Below, piece by piece: positions 461 to 7,771 of a stretch of 22,035 nt of DNA. The position numbers and the translations under genes are program-made. Source of the stretch: a virus; IMG/VR virus record IMGVR_UViG_3300009370_000189, positions 1 to 22,035 of that record; one strand, 5' to 3'. Under the pieces are notes generated by a model, which saw nothing but the letters and a program-made list of their open reading frames with translations, was not told the origin of the DNA and made no database searches. How positions within the stretch are numbered: position 1 is the stretch's first letter; every line of letters begins with the position of its first letter.

Positions 461-2596
461 TTATGCATATAAAACATTGCCAGTTGCGTTCTTAGTAGCT
501 CTAACATTATCTTCTGTAGCTTTTCTAGTCTTGTTATTCACACTTACAAGTGTATTTACACCATCTACCATGCTTGTAAGGGTTTTATTTGCTGTGTTTA
601 ATTCTGTTACCATATTTGTCATTTTATTTTCTAATGCTTCAGTACTGAATACTTTTGCAAGGTCTGTTGTTGCAGTAACCGTACCAGTAGTTTTTGATGT
701 AATTACTTCAGGTCCTTTTTCACCTACAAGATAAGATTTACCAACATCTATTGGGCCACCAAATGCTTTTTTGCCAATCGCACCACCAATTGCTTGTCCA
801 CCCATTGCTCCTAAACCTGCTCCAATTAATCCGCCTACAATTGTTCCTAATCCTGGAATAATTGAACCTAGTGCGGCACCCGTTGCCGCTCCAGCCGCCG
901 CTCCAGCCAAACCACCTTTACCTGCGGCATCATTACTTTTATCTTTGTCCATAAGCATTCCTGCACTAGAACCAACTCCCACAATAGCTCCTACTGCCGG
1001 TAATGCTCTTGTTAATCCAAATTTGCCAACTTTTCCAGCCGCCCCGCCCATGCGACCTAGTAATCCAGATAATTTGCCTGTACCAATTGCGGTACCTGCC
1101 GCTATAATTCCAATTTGTGTAGCTTTATCAAACAAATATCTTCCTACTATAATACCTGCCAATGCTGTACCTGTAAGTGCTGGTACTTTTGCTAATAATG
1201 CCGCTATTCCACCAAAGCCTCCCATTAGTCCTTGTAATCCTGTTACAAGTCCTCCAAGGGCTGGCCCAAATGCCGATAATAAACTTGTTTCTATTTTTTG
1301 AAATTGTCCTGATAATCTTTTTGTAGCATCTTGAAATGTTGTAAGTCCTTGTGTTAGGCTAGTTGCAGTTGCTCCTTGTTCGGCCATTATTGCATTTAAA
1401 TCATAATTTCTTGATCCTAAATCAACAACACCTTTTTGTAATCTTAAGAATTCAACTGTACCTGTTACCGTTGCTTTTCTAAATCTATCTTGTGATCTTA
1501 CAGCCGCATTTCTTATAGACATTAAAGCTTCTTCTGATGTTGTTAGTCCAGAAATTAAATTTTGTACTGCCACTCTTGCTTCTGGCATATTTTGTACTAA
1601 TTGTAAAGCGGCTTCAGTTACTGGAATTCCAGCATTTGCAATTAAGTCTTGAAATCCTTCATTTAAGTCTGGTGCAATGGCTCCTATTGTTCCTGAAAAA
1701 GCCTGCATTCTTGTGGCAACTTCATCAGTTTGTCCACCTAAAAATGCTAGGAATCTTTCGTTTGACATTCCTGCTTCTATTTGTGCTTGTAATTCTTCTC
1801 TTTGTGTTCCAGTAAGTTTTGCTAATCTATCTAATTGTTTTGCCAAATTCATAGCACTAGCAACATTTTGTTGTCTAGCATTTGCATCAAAATTAAAAGT
1901 TCTTCTTTGTCGTTCTAAATTTAATAATAATGTTTCATTAATTTCATCAACTGTAAATCCTAATGGTGCAAGTGAGTCAACACCGGTTGTTCTGAAACGT
2001 TCTGATAATTCAGCAATTCTTTGTGCACCTACTGTTGTTGATCCAAATAGTGCGGCTAAATTATTTGCATTTTGTCCTACTAATTGAGCAAAATCATCTA
2101 AAGGTAATAGAGCCTGTCCTGCCGCTCTTCGCATTTCAACAATACTTTGTCCAAAATTTGCACCTGTTTGTGCTAATTGTCTAAATGTTTCGATGTTTGT
2201 ATCTAATCTTTGTCCAATATTCGCAAATGAATCACCAATAATATTAAAGCCTTTTAAATTATCTGTAAAGGCACTAATAGATCCTTCACCTGCCGCCGCG
2301 GCTCTACCAAAGCCAAGTACAGCAGAACCAACGTGTCTTAATGATTTTTCATATTTTCTGTGTTCACCAATCGAATCTTCCACAGCTTCTGAAAATAGAT
2401 TAACAATTTTTGTTGCTTCTGTATTACCTTTGGCAAGTTCTTTTCTTTTTCGAACTTCTTCTCTTATTTGAGCAATATTTTTTTTTGATTCAACTAGTAC
2501 TTTTGCTTTTTCTCGTAATTGTTCTCTAGAAGGTACCGCTTCTCTATTACCTTCTTTAATTGCTTGTACTAATTCTTTTATATCTAAAGGATCCAT
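461..2596 (-). CDS. Tail tape measure protein (gp29-type), 711 aa
   Basis: Tape measure proteins set tail length and are loaded inside the tail tube during assembly. The sequence shows the usual architecture: a charged helical N-terminus (about 1-90, with repeated Lys/Glu/Arg heptads), a long helical body, hydrophobic segments between about 436 and 545, and a Gly/Ala-rich membrane-like stretch at about 560-606. Near the C-terminus is the motif GGPIDVGKSYLVGEKGPEVI (613-632), which recurs at the end of many phage tape measures. At about 1.5 angstrom per residue, 711 residues would suit a tail of roughly 105 nm, close to that of T4 (gp29, 590 aa). The ATG at 2596 lacks a strong Shine-Dalgarno. 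A minus-strand late promoter lies about 63 bases upstream. Its likely chaperone (gp26/51) is encoded divergently next door rather than upstream in the same operon. Homology to T4 gp29 itself is inferred; the tape-measure call is firm. Confidence 0.85.
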   Translation of the reverse strand: MDPLDIKELVQAIKEGNREAVPSREQLREKAKVLVESKKNIAQIREEVRKRKELAKGNTEATKIVNLFSEAVEDSIGEHRKYEKSLRHVGSAVLGFGRAAAAGEGSISAFTDNLKGFNIIGDSFANIGQRLDTNIETFRQLAQTGANFGQSIVEMRRAAGQALLPLDDFAQLVGQNANNLAALFGSTTVGAQRIAELSERFRTTGVDSLAPLGFTVDEINETLLLNLERQRRTFNFDANARQQNVASAMNLAKQLDRLAKLTGTQREELQAQIEAGMSNERFLAFLGGQTDEVATRMQAFSGTIGAIAPDLNEGFQDLIANAGIPVTEAALQLVQNMPEARVAVQNLISGLTTSEEALMSIRNAAVRSQDRFRKATVTGTVEFLRLQKGVVDLGSRNYDLNAIMAEQGATATSLTQGLTTFQDATKRLSGQFQKIETSLLSAFGPALGGLVTGLQGLMGGFGGIAALLAKVPALTGTALAGIIVGRYLFDKATQIGIIAAGTAIGTGKLSGLLGRMGGAAGKVGKFGLTRALPAVGAIVGVGSSAGMLMDKDKSNDAAGKGGLAGAAAGAATGAALGSIIPGLGTIVGGLIGAGLGAMGGQAIGGAIGKKAFGGPIDVGKSYLVGEKGPEVITSKTTGTVTATTDLAKVFSTEALENKMTNMVTELNTANKTLTSMVDGVNTLVSVNNKTRKATEDNVRATKNATGNVLYA

Positions 2597-2625: not shown

Positions 2626-2633
2626 TATAAATA
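2626..2633 (+). promoter_or_regulatory. T4-type late promoter driving gp26 operon
   Basis: An exact TATAAATA octamer, the T4 late-promoter consensus recognised by gp55, lies 43 bases before the gp26 start. The expected start of transcription is about 2639, leaving a leader of about 38 bases. It overlaps the element ATATACGCATATAA (2617-2630), which recurs at 18049-18062 before gp6. A gp55 gene is present in this window, so the regulator is encoded by the same phage. Confidence 0.6.
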
Positions 2634-2658: not shown

Positions 2659-2666
2659 TATTTATA
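2659..2666 (-). promoter_or_regulatory. T4-type late promoter driving tape measure and portal
   Basis: The plus strand reads TATTTATA, so the minus strand carries an exact TATAAATA. Transcription would start near 2653 and run left into the tape measure gene at 2596, with a leader of about 57 bases. It lies downstream of the rightward late promoter at 2626, so the two promoters face each other and their transcripts should share a short complementary 5' segment. Confidence 0.55.
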
Positions 2667-2676
2667 GATATAAAAA

Positions 2677-3528
2677 ATGCCAGAAAACGTAAACCCTTTA
2701 AACAAGTACTTTAGACAACCCGCTATATATGTGACCTTACCGAATGGAAATTATCCTCCAACTGTATTGACACCATCTCAAACAGGCGAATTAGGTGTAC
2801 AACCAATGACAGCTAAAGACGAAATTAAGTTTAAAACTCCAGATGCATTAATGAATGGACAAGGAGTAGTAGATGTAATTCAAAGTTGCATTCCAAGTAT
2901 TAAAGATGCATGGCAAATTAACAGTTATGATTTAGATACAATATTAATTGGTATTAGAATTGCTACATACGGTGAAACAATGGATATTAATTTTAATGTT
3001 CCAGGAGCAAATGAACAAGCATCGCATTCAATAAATCTTCCTGCTGTATTAGATGGCATAAGAAATAAAAAAATTGTAAATGAAATTATACTTAAAGATG
3101 GATTAAAAATTGAAATTAGACCATTAACATATAGAGATATGACTAAAGCTTCGTTACAAACATTTCAACAACAAAAAATGTATTCAGCAGTATCAGATTC
3201 TAAAATGGCAGATGAAGAAAAAGTAAAAAGATTTGATGAAAGTTTTAAATCATTAACTGAATTAAGTACTACAATACTTTTAAAAAATATTTCTAAAATT
3301 ACAACACCTAGTGAAGATGTAGTTACCGATCCTGCACAAATTAAAGAATTTGTTGATAATGCTAAAGCAACTCTTATTACAGAATTACAAGAAGAATTAG
3401 TTAAAATAAGAATTCAAGGTTCAGTACCTCCATTAAAACTTAAAGCAACAGAAGAACAGATCAAAAAAGGCGCTCCTGCCACTTATGAAGTGCCAGTTAC
3501 ATTTGATACTGCAAATTTTTTCGTATAA
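2677..3528 (+). CDS. 26: gp26-like baseplate hub / tape-measure assembly protein, 283 aa
   Basis: The protein resembles the T4 gp26 family (T4 baseplate protein family). The N-terminus, PLNKYFRQPAIYVTLPNG (about 7-24), carries the PLNKxFRxPxIYxxLP pattern of T4 gp26, and PLTYRDM near 150 belongs to the conserved core. gp26 is needed for assembly of the baseplate hub and tape measure complex. This copy is longer than T4 gp26 (208 aa). Just before its stop, residues 281-282 (Phe-Phe) are encoded by TTT TTC preceded by T, a classic -1 slippery heptamer that would send some ribosomes into the next ORF. The ATG at 2677 follows an A-rich leader with no clear Shine-Dalgarno. It is the first gene of a plus-strand late operon. 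Family assignment is good; the exact role is by analogy. Confidence 0.75.
   Translation: MPENVNPLNKYFRQPAIYVTLPNGNYPPTVLTPSQTGELGVQPMTAKDEIKFKTPDALMNGQGVVDVIQSCIPSIKDAWQINSYDLDTILIGIRIATYGETMDINFNVPGANEQASHSINLPAVLDGIRNKKIVNEIILKDGLKIEIRPLTYRDMTKASLQTFQQQKMYSAVSDSKMADEEKVKRFDESFKSLTELSTTILLKNISKITTPSEDVVTDPAQIKEFVDNAKATLITELQEELVKIRIQGSVPPLKLKATEEQIKKGAPATYEVPVTFDTANFFV
3516..3522 (+). promoter_or_regulatory. Putative -1 ribosomal frameshift site (T TTT TTC) joining gp26 to gp51-like ORF
   Basis: In the gp26 frame the codons are GCA AAT TTT TTC GTA TAA, so bases 3516-3522 form T TTT TTC, which fits the X XXY YYZ rule. Slipping back one base continues as CGT ATA ACC TTG CTA, directly into the 3531 frame. 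That frame is open only from 3507 (TGA at 3504-3506), so the slippery site sits inside the 22-base window where a shift is possible. The product would be 282 + 76 = 358 residues. I see no convincing stimulatory stem just downstream and no upstream Shine-Dalgarno-like stimulator. Confidence 0.6.
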
Positions 3529-3530
3529 CC

Positions 3531-3752
3531 TTGCTATCACAGTCGGACTCTGACATCATAAAAACTTTAAAAGATATGGAAACAGAGACTAAAGAACTTC
3601 GATTAGATCTTTTAAAAATATGTTGGTATATGAGAGGTGGCGTAACTTATTCTGAAGCATCAGCTATGTCCCCACAGGAACGAGAAATTGTGAGTAATTT
3701 GGTAAAACAAAACTTGGAAACGACTAAAAAAACTGGTCAACCTTTTTTCTAA
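3531..3752 (+). CDS. gp51-like hub assembly / tail chaperone extension, 73 aa (probably made by -1 frameshift)
   Basis: This small ORF has only a TTG as a possible start at its head, 2 bases after the gp26 stop and with no Shine-Dalgarno; the first ATG is at 3577. The protein has an acidic/basic helical first half and then the motif WYMRGGVTYSEASAMSPQER (about 33-52), ending in KKTGQPFF. This type of short protein after gp26 in T4-like marine phages is, as I recall, labelled gp51 or hub assembly catalyst; I treat that name as tentative. Frame, position and lack of a start signal make it more likely the C-terminal extension of gp26, joined by frameshifting from 3522, as in the G/GT chaperones of other tailed phages. 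If so, it would bind the tape measure protein or tail tube subunits. Independent initiation at TTG 3531 cannot be excluded. Confidence 0.6.
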   Translation: MLSQSDSDIIKTLKDMETETKELRLDLLKICWYMRGGVTYSEASAMSPQEREIVSNLVKQNLETTKKTGQPFF

Positions 3753-4637: not shown

Positions 4638-5379
4638 AATCGCTTCTGCATAATTTTTGATATAATTTTTTAGATTTAGACCATTTAGTTCCAGTCCACC
4701 ACTGAAATCCTTGCCATTTACTTTTATACATAGAAGATGTTTCATAACCAGAACCCATATAATAATATGCGGATCTATGTTCTTTAGCCCATATCATTTC
4801 CATATCTAAAGTAAGTTGTGAGATTGGCTCTTTATTACAATGTATTACTGATTCAAATCCTGCCCACCACATAGATTCATCATTATTAGGATCACCAATT
4901 TGTCTTGTATATTGGCCAAATTGATTTATAGCGTCTTCTTGATAATGATATTTTTTAAGTTTTGTAAACGCAATAACTTTATCTACTGTGTCAGTGTAAA
5001 ATATAAGAAAAGAATCTCGTCCATGAAAATGATCAAATGGATTATAATCCATTGTAAATTCTTTACGTTTCATATACTCACGATAAATTTTAGGAAGACC
5101 GACTAGTTTAACCATTTCGTTTGCTTCAATTTCTTTTATTAAAAGTTGTTTTCCGTTAAGTTTATGAGATTTAAATCGAGGTTCAAATTTTTCAAGATCA
5201 ACACGAGTAGAACGAGATTGATAATATACTTCTTGACCTTTTATTGGGTAATCTAATGCTAACCAACCTGTTTCAACTGCTTCGTTTTCTTCCTCCTCCA
5301 TTACTTCTGCTAAAGGTTTACATATTACCAAGTCTTGATGTTCTTGTTTGCCGAGGGTGTGGTCAAAGATTAATTTCAT
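4579..5379 (-). CDS. Arginyl-tRNA-protein transferase (ATE)-like GNAT-fold protein, 266 aa
   Basis: The C-terminal half follows the ATE/leucyl-arginyl transferase pattern. ISQLTLDMEMIWAKEHRSAY (186-205) is followed by YYMGSGYETSSMYKSKW and then QWWTGTKW (about 226-233), matching the E-x-x-W-A-K-E, Y-x-Y-L-G-Y and M-x-Y-K blocks that precede the final P-x-E-x-L...W of ATE enzymes. The N-terminal half has YYQSRSTRVDLEKFEPRFKS (52-71), which aligns with the ATE segment (C-x-x-C-x-P-x-R-V-x-V-x-x-F-x-P), but the cysteines are absent. ATE enzymes move an amino acid from tRNA to protein N-termini; acceptor and donor here are unknown. The ATG at 5379 has AGGA 9 bases upstream and overlaps the oxygenase stop as ATGA. 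It is last in a three-gene operon. A generic acetyltransferase is the alternative. Confidence 0.6.
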   Translation of the reverse strand: MKLIFDHTLGKQEHQDLVICKPLAEVMEEEENEAVETGWLALDYPIKGQEVYYQSRSTRVDLEKFEPRFKSHKLNGKQLLIKEIEANEMVKLVGLPKIYREYMKRKEFTMDYNPFDHFHGRDSFLIFYTDTVDKVIAFTKLKKYHYQEDAINQFGQYTRQIGDPNNDESMWWAGFESVIHCNKEPISQLTLDMEMIWAKEHRSAYYYMGSGYETSSMYKSKWQGFQWWTGTKWSKSKKLYQKLCRSDSRVQSLSDVAKIPSLLLRT

Positions 5380-5996
5380 ATAATTTCTTCCTGTAATATT
5401 CCAGTTACATTAAAAGTCCATTTGTCTTCAGTACCTACGTTAGCAGATAAATGCCAACGATCAGGATACCATAATAAAATGTCACCTGCTTTCCAATGTG
5501 ATATAAATGAATTACCCGCCTGTAATAGATGTCCATTTTGCCAATCTGTTTGAAATATTATATATCTTACAACAAATTCATCTTGTCCTGGATTATTTCT
5601 TTTAAAATAGAAAAATTTATCTTGGTGCCACGGCATTATATTACCTGGTGGTTGTAATGTTGGTCTGCTAGTAGGATTAATTAATGGTAGTTGATCCATA
5701 ATTTCTTTTTCCCAAGACATTTCTAATTTAGGTTGAATAGTTGTTGTTTCCCAGTGTCGAGTATTGTGAGAACTATATCCTGACTCTCTATGTTTTTCTA
5801 ATTCTTTATAAAGATCATCTCCTAAAGAATCCCAAGATTTACGTTCGCCTACAAGTGTTTGCCAACATTCAGGATGATTTTGTACTGTTTGTTTGCATTC
5901 TTGTTGTATTGTTTGCCAGTCTGCTTTAATGTTACCGCACCAAACATAGTCTTTACTTTTTATATCATTCAGATAAGTGGTTCGAGATACAGACAC
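5376..5996 (-). CDS. 2-oxoglutarate/Fe(II)-dependent oxygenase, 206 aa
   Basis: The metal-binding facial triad is visible: PWHQDKFFYFKR provides His124 and Asp126, and WYPDRWHLSANVG provides His182. Lys192, in the following KWTFNVTG, is a candidate for the 2-oxoglutarate carboxylate. The GDILLWYPDRWHLSAN strand pattern is like aspartyl/asparaginyl hydroxylases and other cupin-fold phage oxygenases. Such enzymes hydroxylate amino acid side chains or small molecules. I chose the GTG at 5996 because AAGAGGAG lies 9 bases before it. A longer frame begins at TTG 6041 or ATG 6035 but has no usable ribosome binding site. It overlaps the aminotransferase by 32 bases and the ATE-like gene by 4, so the three are almost certainly translated as one unit. 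The substrate is unknown; a hydroxylated amino acid or protein residue is a guess. Confidence 0.75.
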   Translation of the reverse strand: MSVSRTTYLNDIKSKDYVWCGNIKADWQTIQQECKQTVQNHPECWQTLVGERKSWDSLGDDLYKELEKHRESGYSSHNTRHWETTTIQPKLEMSWEKEIMDQLPLINPTSRPTLQPPGNIMPWHQDKFFYFKRNNPGQDEFVVRYIIFQTDWQNGHLLQAGNSFISHWKAGDILLWYPDRWHLSANVGTEDKWTFNVTGILQEEII

Positions 5997-6816
5997 GTAT
6001 ATAATCTCCTCTTTTGTACTCTTGCATAGACTCATCTCCAATAGCCAAAGTTAATGTGTTTGTACGTTGTAGTCCTAATTTTTCACACATAGTTTTGTTT
6101 TTGTCCATGTATTTTTCTATTAGCCAATCCTGTGGAAACTTTTTAAGCAGTTCTGAACTGATATACCCATTAACTTTGTCAAATATGTTGGCGCCAATTA
6201 ATGCAATAGTAATACTATCATCGACTAGTTCTTTTGTAAAACGTACGCCAAGTCTTAAAGGGTTGCCTACAAGGTTTTTGCTTAAACTAGTTGTTAAATC
6301 TTTTATACAAGGTCTTGTTAGGTCGTATGTAATGCCATGTGATATACCAAAGTATGCGGCATCGATAAAAACAGGAATGTTTAATTCATCACACGTATCC
6401 ATAATTTTATTAAAATCTGGATGCATTGAACCATTACCTGAAAATGGTACACTTATTATTAATGAATCGTTTGGTTTAAGTTCGTCATCTTCTAGGTAGC
6501 ATAGATTTCTACCGTATGCTTTAGATAATACTCTTGTTATAATAAAGTCACTTCTGCTTACTCTAATTCTATTGTTGTGATATCTGGAAACAAATTCGCC
6601 GAATGCGTCAGTAGTACCTGGACAAAAAGCACAATGCTTCATGCTTTCCAATCCAATTATTTTATTGTAAGAAGAATTAGATAACCACGATCGCCAATCA
6701 GATTCAAATTGCGTTACACTAAAATTATCCAAGTCGGCGTAGTTAAGTTTTACCAAAATATTATCGACATATTCGATAACTTCTTTAGTTTTTAAAGGGT
6801 CATGTAGCAGTTGCAT
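5965..6816 (-). CDS. Compact PLP-dependent aminotransferase (class I/II fold), 283 aa
   Basis: Numbering is from the ATG at 6816. The fold-type I signature is clear: VFIDAAYFGISHG supplies the pyridine-binding Asp152 and Tyr155, TTSLSKNLVG supplies the Schiff-base Lys180, and NPLRLGVRF follows with the usual Arg. FCPGTTDAFGEF (about 64-75) fits the phosphate-binding turn, and the C-terminal YIRVCIS fits the substrate-carboxylate Arg strand. Class I/II aminotransferases usually have 350-420 residues, so this copy is shortened in the N-terminal arm and C-terminal domain but keeps the catalytic residues. A TTG at 6822 would add two residues; neither start has a good ribosome binding site. It is the first gene of the minus-strand accessory operon and follows the structured non-coding region. 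Amino donor, acceptor and product are unknown; a lyase or decarboxylase of the same fold is possible. Confidence 0.7.
   Translation of the reverse strand: MQLLHDPLKTKEVIEYVDNILVKLNYADLDNFSVTQFESDWRSWLSNSSYNKIIGLESMKHCAFCPGTTDAFGEFVSRYHNNRIRVSRSDFIITRVLSKAYGRNLCYLEDDELKPNDSLIISVPFSGNGSMHPDFNKIMDTCDELNIPVFIDAAYFGISHGITYDLTRPCIKDLTTSLSKNLVGNPLRLGVRFTKELVDDSITIALIGANIFDKVNGYISSELLKKFPQDWLIEKYMDKNKTMCEKLGLQRTNTLTLAIGDESMQEYKRGDYIRVCISNHLSE
6006..6010 (-). promoter_or_regulatory. Ribosome binding site fixing the oxygenase start
   Basis: The minus strand reads AAGAGGAGATTATATAC before GTG 5996. AGGAG at 9-base spacing is one of the strongest Shine-Dalgarno matches in the window. It lies inside the aminotransferase coding region and favours GTG 5996 over TTG 6041. 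Confidence 0.6.
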
Positions 6817-6840
6817 ATGCAATACTTAACGTCAACATAA

Positions 6841-7102: not shown

Positions 7103-7261
7103 CTGGGGGTGCTTTTTCTTCAGAGCCCCATCATTGCCTTTTTCTACAAGCAAGATCTGATCGCAAAATGCGACCTCAATGCTGTTTTATGTAAAGTAGA
7201 TATGTTTTGCCTAATTGTATGTGATGTGTGCCTATCGCTTATATATAGCAATATAATATCA

Positions 7262-7771
7262 ATGTCAAGAAAAAGTAAAATAAAAGGTAAAAGTTGGGAG
7301 AGAGACGTTGCTAACTTTTTAACTAAATTATATAATGAACCGTTTTTACGTGTTCCTAATTCAGGTGCGTTTGTTGGAGGTTATAACATTTATCGAACGC
7401 AAACAATGACAGAACAACAAGTTAAAAGTTTTAAAGGTGATATTATACCAGGTCCTTCATTTAAACATCTAGTAATAGAGTGTAAAAATTATAAGGATTT
7501 TCCATTTCATAAATTATTATTTGCACAAGAAATTAAGCAATTAGACGATTGGATAAAACAAGCACAAGGCTCTTGTGAGAAAAACGATGTATGGATATTG
7601 TGCATTAAAGTAACGCACAAATGTTCATTTGTTGTTTGGGATCATAGTCAAATAATGGTTCCGTCAGACGGAGAATATAAAGATTATCAATATTGTGAAT
7701 TCGATAATTTTTGGGAAGAATCTTCAGAAGATATTAAAAAGGCCTGTTCAAATAAAATAAAACAAGCCTAG
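7262..7771 (+). CDS. PD-(D/E)XK nuclease, Holliday-junction-resolvase (Hjc)-like, 169 aa
   Basis: The N-terminus, KGKSWERDVANFLTKLYN (8-25), is like the helix of archaeal Hjc-type resolvases that carries the first catalytic Glu (Glu13). RVPNSGAF follows, then KGD with Asp60, and VIECKNYKD with Glu73 and Lys75. Together these give the E...D...E-x-K set of the PD-(D/E)XK superfamily. Members cut branched DNA or act as restriction or repair nucleases; resolving recombination intermediates would suit a phage that also encodes gp46/gp47. The ATG at 7262 is preferred to upstream GTG 7109 because the nuclease domain starts right after it and the upstream residues look untranslated, although there is no Shine-Dalgarno. 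It converges on the Hc1-like gene with a gap of 12 bases. The fold is likely; the resolvase role is inferred. Confidence 0.7.
   Translation: MSRKSKIKGKSWERDVANFLTKLYNEPFLRVPNSGAFVGGYNIYRTQTMTEQQVKSFKGDIIPGPSFKHLVIECKNYKDFPFHKLLFAQEIKQLDDWIKQAQGSCEKNDVWILCIKVTHKCSFVVWDHSQIMVPSDGEYKDYQYCEFDNFWEESSEDIKKACSNKIKQA
7740..7769 (-). terminator. Probable intrinsic terminator for the minus-strand Hc1-like transcript
   Basis: On the minus strand AGGC-T-TGTT and AACA-G-GGCCT arms (7769-7761 and 7748-7740 in plus coordinates; 8 pairs with one mismatch) are followed by a run of T (plus-strand A run ending at 7740). It lies inside the 3' end of the nuclease gene, 15 bases past the Hc1-like stop, where the leftward operon should end. 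Confidence 0.4.

Follow-up and report, generated by a model that had tools for sequence, protein, structure and literature searches.

A conserved slippery heptamer at the end of a gp26-like gene points to a -1 frameshifted tail assembly chaperone in a marine T4-like virus

Organization of the locus

The analyzed window is a stretch of 22035 nucleotides (IMG/VR record IMGVR_UViG_3300009370_000189, positions 1 to 22035). In this window, a gp26-like ORF (TAC-N) ends with GCA AAT TTT TTC GTA TAA and overlaps a second ORF that lies in the -1 frame (Table 1). The heptamer T_TTT_TTC stands in the X_XXY_YYZ register relative to the gp26-like frame, and the 0-frame stop (TAA, 3526-3528) is located three bases past it. 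The -1 frame is preceded by a TGA (3504-3506), is open from 3507 to 3752 and is closed by a TAA (3750-3752). A -1 slip at the heptamer is predicted to give a product of 282 + 76 = 358 amino acids. When the sequence was rechecked, the coordinates given in an earlier sequence-only reading for the ORFs, the heptamer, the 22-base overlap and the 358-aa fusion were all found to be correct.

Table 1 Features of the chaperone locus in the window (TAC-N, short form; TAC-C, C-terminal extension)
Feature	Position	Strand	Basis
TAC-N, short form, gp26-like, 283 aa	2677..3528	+	ORF; phrog_150 and PF12322; AF2 model against BFVD
Slippery heptamer T_TTT_TTC, predicted -1 frameshift site	3516..3522	+	Sequence; conservation
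Overlap of 22 bases, 0-frame and -1 frame both open	3507..3528	+	
TAC-C, C-terminal extension in the -1 frame, 76 aa past the slip	3516..3752	+	Protein-like; open in all complete relatives
Probable tape measure gene, divergent neighbour, expected client	461..2596	-	phrog_167
Late promoter box of the T4 type (TATAAATA), oriented towards TAC-N	2626..2633	+	
Late promoter box of the T4 type (TATAAATA), oriented towards the tape measure gene	2659..2666	-	

The divergent neighbour is probably the tape measure gene, as judged from the match of its product to phrog_167 (tail length tape measure; E-value 2e-13). The chaperone gene appears to lie beside the tape measure gene in divergent orientation, and a divergently oriented ORF longer than 400 codons adjoins TAC-N in all 55 relatives in which this could be tested. 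T4-type late promoter boxes are placed back to back between the two genes (2626-2666, both strands). The box for TAC-N, about 50 bases upstream of its ATG, was observed in 46 of 52 relatives, the box facing the tape measure gene in 51 and both boxes together in 45.

Elsewhere in the window, two adjacent overlapping genes (5376-6822, minus strand) resemble a PhyH-type dioxygenase and a class I/II aminotransferase with scores below threshold, a pair that is unusual beside tail genes. A PDDEXK endonuclease-like gene (PF24608; E-value 2e-22) was located at 7109-7771.

Identity of the two protein parts

TAC-N matched phrog_150, annotated as baseplate hub, with an E-value of 4e-16 and the Pfam family PF12322 (T4_baseplate) with 45.9 bits, above the curated cut-off of 24.5. 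On these profile matches, the first ORF belongs to the T4 gp26 family (PF12322/phrog_150). Structure predictions were made for TAC-N and TAC-C apart, as two separate parts. The AF2 model of TAC-N (pLDDT 84) matched BFVD models of T4-like baseplate hub assembly proteins (best E-value 1.4e-22) and gave a weak match to one protein annotated as a tail assembly chaperone (E-value 0.03). Foldseek returned no match between TAC-N and the solved tail chaperones in PDB at E-values of 0.001 or lower, the VIA-align rows of the PDB comparison corresponded to generic helices, and the sequence search was likewise uninformative. In most jumbo-phage relatives, the TAC-N alignment also contains two nearly invariant Cys pairs (C110/C113 and C258/C263 of Atu_ph07 TAC-N), which are absent from the window protein.

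The model of TAC-C is mostly helical (pLDDT 76; pTM 0.39). When profiles were compared using hhalign, TAC-C of the marine clade matched the -1 ORFs of jumbo phages (99.6 %; E-value 1.5e-24), and its direct match to the C-domains of cyanophages and T4 was weak (probability 22 %; E-value 1e-3). The jumbo-phage C-domain set links to both, with 99.6 % for the marine TAC-C and 73 % for the cyanophage/T4 C-domains. Against the gp51 profile phrog_634, TAC-C gave a weak match (E-value 0.04). The second ORF may be called gp51-like only tentatively, mainly from its position and weak similarity.

Conservation of the heptamer in the marine clade

A single heptamer in the window is no evidence by itself, since TTTTTTC occurs 18 times against 17.2 expected by chance. 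An IMG/VR scan produced 78 loci, of which 77 span the junction (protein identities of 46-77 %), and AAATTTTTTCG and a -1 ORF were present in all 77. After removal of sequences with at least 95 % identity, 57 sequences were left, including the window. AAT TTT TTC was identical in all of them, where the codons used in the rest of these genes give a chance expectation of about 10 % per gene, and in each of the 57 the -1 ORF was open and the stop was found at +3 from the heptamer.

Two kinds of control site vary within the same clade. The adjacent codons for Phe (-8) and Asp (-7) vary synonymously, and the Phe-Phe that ends the -1 ORF is encoded as TTT TTC in only 2 of 56 sequences. Counts such as 57/57 do not represent independent events because the clade sequences are related. 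However, as the control sites vary in the same sequences, the constraint on the heptamer is real despite this kinship. Judged by this comparison, the conservation is far above chance and is decisive for the heptamer as a slippery site. Another heptamer occurs where TAC-C ends (3743-3749); it was considered as a further slip site and rejected, being conserved in 2/56 only.

The heptamer in cyanophages, jumbo phages and other isolates

Jumbo phages were found by tblastn against phage records, and a total of 19 non-T4 isolate phages were examined. All 19 carry T_TTT_TTC or T_TTT_TTT with an open -1 frame. Among the jumbo phages, the first ORF contains T_TTT_TTC and is followed by a -1 ORF in Atu_ph07, Phosso, PA5oct, Munch, BF, CBB, XbC2, PBECO4, Vibrio 2.275, K64-1 and SCTP-2; RAS14 has T_TTT_TTT in its place, also with a -1 ORF, and the distance from heptamer to stop ranges from 3 to 33 bases among these 12 phages. 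A like arrangement was observed in the cyanophages P-SSM2, S-PM2 and Syn9, in KVP40 and phiW-14 and, with T_TTT_TTT as the heptamer, in pelagiphage HTVC008M and phiM12. In all 80 cyanophage-type loci of a further scan, T_TTT_TTC lay three bases ahead of the stop codon and the -1 frame was open, so that the distance of 3 is constant in both the marine and the cyanophage-type clades.

The sole exception among the relatives examined is T4, in which a gene of its own encodes the long form. In all others the heptamer and its register, which the sequence-only reading had singled out for comparison, were kept, as was the open -1 frame; none of them lacked the heptamer or had the second ORF in another register. 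The conserved heptamer, register and open frame thus support the frameshift interpretation of the junction between the gp26-like gene and the second ORF.

Coding signal in the -1 frame

The first -1 codon past the slip is CGN (Arg) in 57/57 marine clade sequences and in 72/76 cyanophage-type sequences, whereas the 0-frame residue drawn from the bases of this codon varies (V/G/A/E/S/N). The second -1 codon, which lies upstream of any start codon, encodes Ile or Val in 56 of the 57 marine sequences and uses A in 53 at a position that is free in the 0-frame. In addition, substitutions are concentrated at third positions of the -1 frame. As the Arg codon is kept while the 0-frame residue varies, the -1 frame is, by this comparison, translated ahead of any possible start codon. 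The substitution pattern places the -1 frame under protein-coding selection throughout the overlap.

Start codons and alternative explanations

No Shine-Dalgarno sequence was found for the second ORF, as the sequence-only reading had stated. However, it is a weak argument for frameshifting because the start of TAC-N itself has a Shine-Dalgarno sequence in only 2 of 52 relatives and lacks one in the other 50. That reading had also held that a proper Shine-Dalgarno sequence together with an ATG would speak against a frameshift; in many cyanophages an ATG is indeed found a few bases past the stop, and a Shine-Dalgarno sequence in none. The ATG lies five -1 codons from the heptamer in 65 of 76 cyanophage-type loci, so separate initiation could also occur there.

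The frameshift might then give the long form while reinitiation gives some free C-domain, which would make three products, at least in cyanophages. The presence of this ATG besides an invariant heptamer is consistent with such an arrangement. However, the residue may be just a conserved Met/Leu, as the marine clade has TTG, CTA, TTA or CTG at the same position (nearly all Leu), and we regard a third product as rather unlikely.

Reinitiation just past the first stop could also be the only route to the second ORF, which would then be a separate gene (gp51 from an ATG). Separate CDSs are annotated in the P-SSM2, HTVC008M and jumbo-phage records, an ATG occurs shortly past the stop in many phages, and the missing Shine-Dalgarno sequence is uninformative for the reason given above. 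However, reinitiation leaves both the fixed heptamer and the conserved -1 codons upstream of the start unexplained, and 14/57 clade members have no nearby start codon (no ATG, GTG or TTG among the first 15 -1 codons). Moreover, the start annotated in Atu_ph07 removes half of the conserved domain and the PA5oct record has no CDS at all at the C-domain position. With conserved -1 codons ahead of the likely starts and a start missing in these 14 members, reinitiation alone is insufficient and has little probability.

Slippage of the polymerase rather than the ribosome on the T6 run, which would join the second frame in the mRNA, is less probable still. The site is a homopolymer run, but the run consists of just six T (seven in phiM12, RAS14 and HTVC008M), whereas transcriptional slippage generally requires longer runs, and the exact X_XXY_YYZ register is retained across relatives. 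A sequencing or assembly error that splits one ORF is refuted for practical purposes by the identical break in 77 contigs and 19 isolate genomes, and also in the 80 cyanophage-type loci.

Proposed mechanism

We conclude that genes 26 and "51" at this locus are very probably a single gene for a tail assembly chaperone, from which -1 frameshifting yields two products. Comparison among relatives shows T_TTT_TTC as a fixed slippery site with a continuous coding -1 frame. We infer the slippage itself, its rate, the minor share of the long form and the chaperoning of the tape measure by the pair. Most ribosomes would terminate at the TAA (3526-3528) and release TAC-N. On T_TTT_TTC, where the two Phe-tRNAs re-pair, a minority would move back by one base, pass the 0-frame stop and produce the long form (TAC-NC, 358 aa). 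If the pair works as G/GT does in lambda, TAC-NC would attach to the tape measure via its C-domain and recruit TAC-N, and the two forms would keep the tape measure soluble and guide tube assembly.

A conserved RNA structure downstream of the heptamer was not found (mean z of about 0 over 42 sequences), and no structural signal upstream or downstream emerged from positional scans, shuffles or single folds. Energy dips at -60 and +100 were rejected as structure because they had no shared pairing. We suggest, as a speculative extension, that one heptamer without a conserved RNA stimulator could be an essentially obligatory frameshift signal in almost every T4-like phage that falls outside the T4 group, with the cyanophage ATG giving a free C-domain as the third product.

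Comparison with known systems

In lambda, gpG and gpGT are a short form and a -1 frameshifted long form encoded near the tape measure gene, and the slip site is GGGAAAG. The parallel with lambda G/GT drawn in the sequence-only reading fits, as two forms of different length, encoded next to the tape measure gene, are also proposed here. The tape measure gene is downstream in lambda and divergent at this locus, the slip site here is T_TTT_TTC, and no sequence similarity between the two systems is claimed.

T4 genes 26 and 51 belong to the same PF12322/phrog_150 family as TAC-N. T4 gp51 matches phrog_150 over its full length and T4 gp26 over the first part only, which indicates that the N and NC forms are two genes in T4. 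Genes 26 (short, N) and 51 (long, N+C) are separate and divergent on opposite strands in T4, whereas a single gene is proposed here. T4 gene 26 retains a Phe-Phe close to its end, but the codons are TTC TTT and there is no slippery heptamer. Vladimirov, Gautam and Davidson (Virology 2022, 566:9-15) reportedly identified the T4-like tail assembly chaperones as the 26/51 family, and frameshifting is said to be conserved in several T4-like groups, with T4 using genes 26 and 51.

In the tail assembly chaperone of Pakpunavirus Adele and the Vandenendeviridae, TAC-N carries a poly-T -1 site at its 3' end, and the C-domain ORF is commonly annotated as a separate gene (PMC12846349). Both features resemble the present locus; the motif there is GTTTTT and the phage families are different. 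The same paper, in a passage citing Vladimirov, Gautam and Davidson 2022, describes poly-T -1 signals as known in T4-like TAC-N genes (PMC12846349), and the PRFect paper, citing the same work, describes some T4-like phages as having, in place of this, two separate genes, one short and the other longer and fused (PMC10885494). The sequence-only reading had left it open whether such frameshifting was reported for T4-like phages; according to the passages of these two papers on T4-like phages it was, in general. Thus, the finding is real but the kind of arrangement is already known. The lineage is new, as are the extent of the conservation and the C-domains missed or truncated in records.

Public phage records often overlook or shorten the C-domain. 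The chaperone C-domain ORF is truncated in the Atu_ph07 record (L079, 3013-3237), has no CDS in the PA5oct record (L080, 3004-3231) and is given an internal start in cyanophages. As a result of such misannotation, annotations do not include the long chaperone.

The comparison clarifies how genes 26 and 51 are related outside T4, where one gene with a programmed slip would correspond to two genes in T4. The invariant heptamer makes the role of gp26/gp51 in T4 hub and tape measure assembly, an old question, easily testable.
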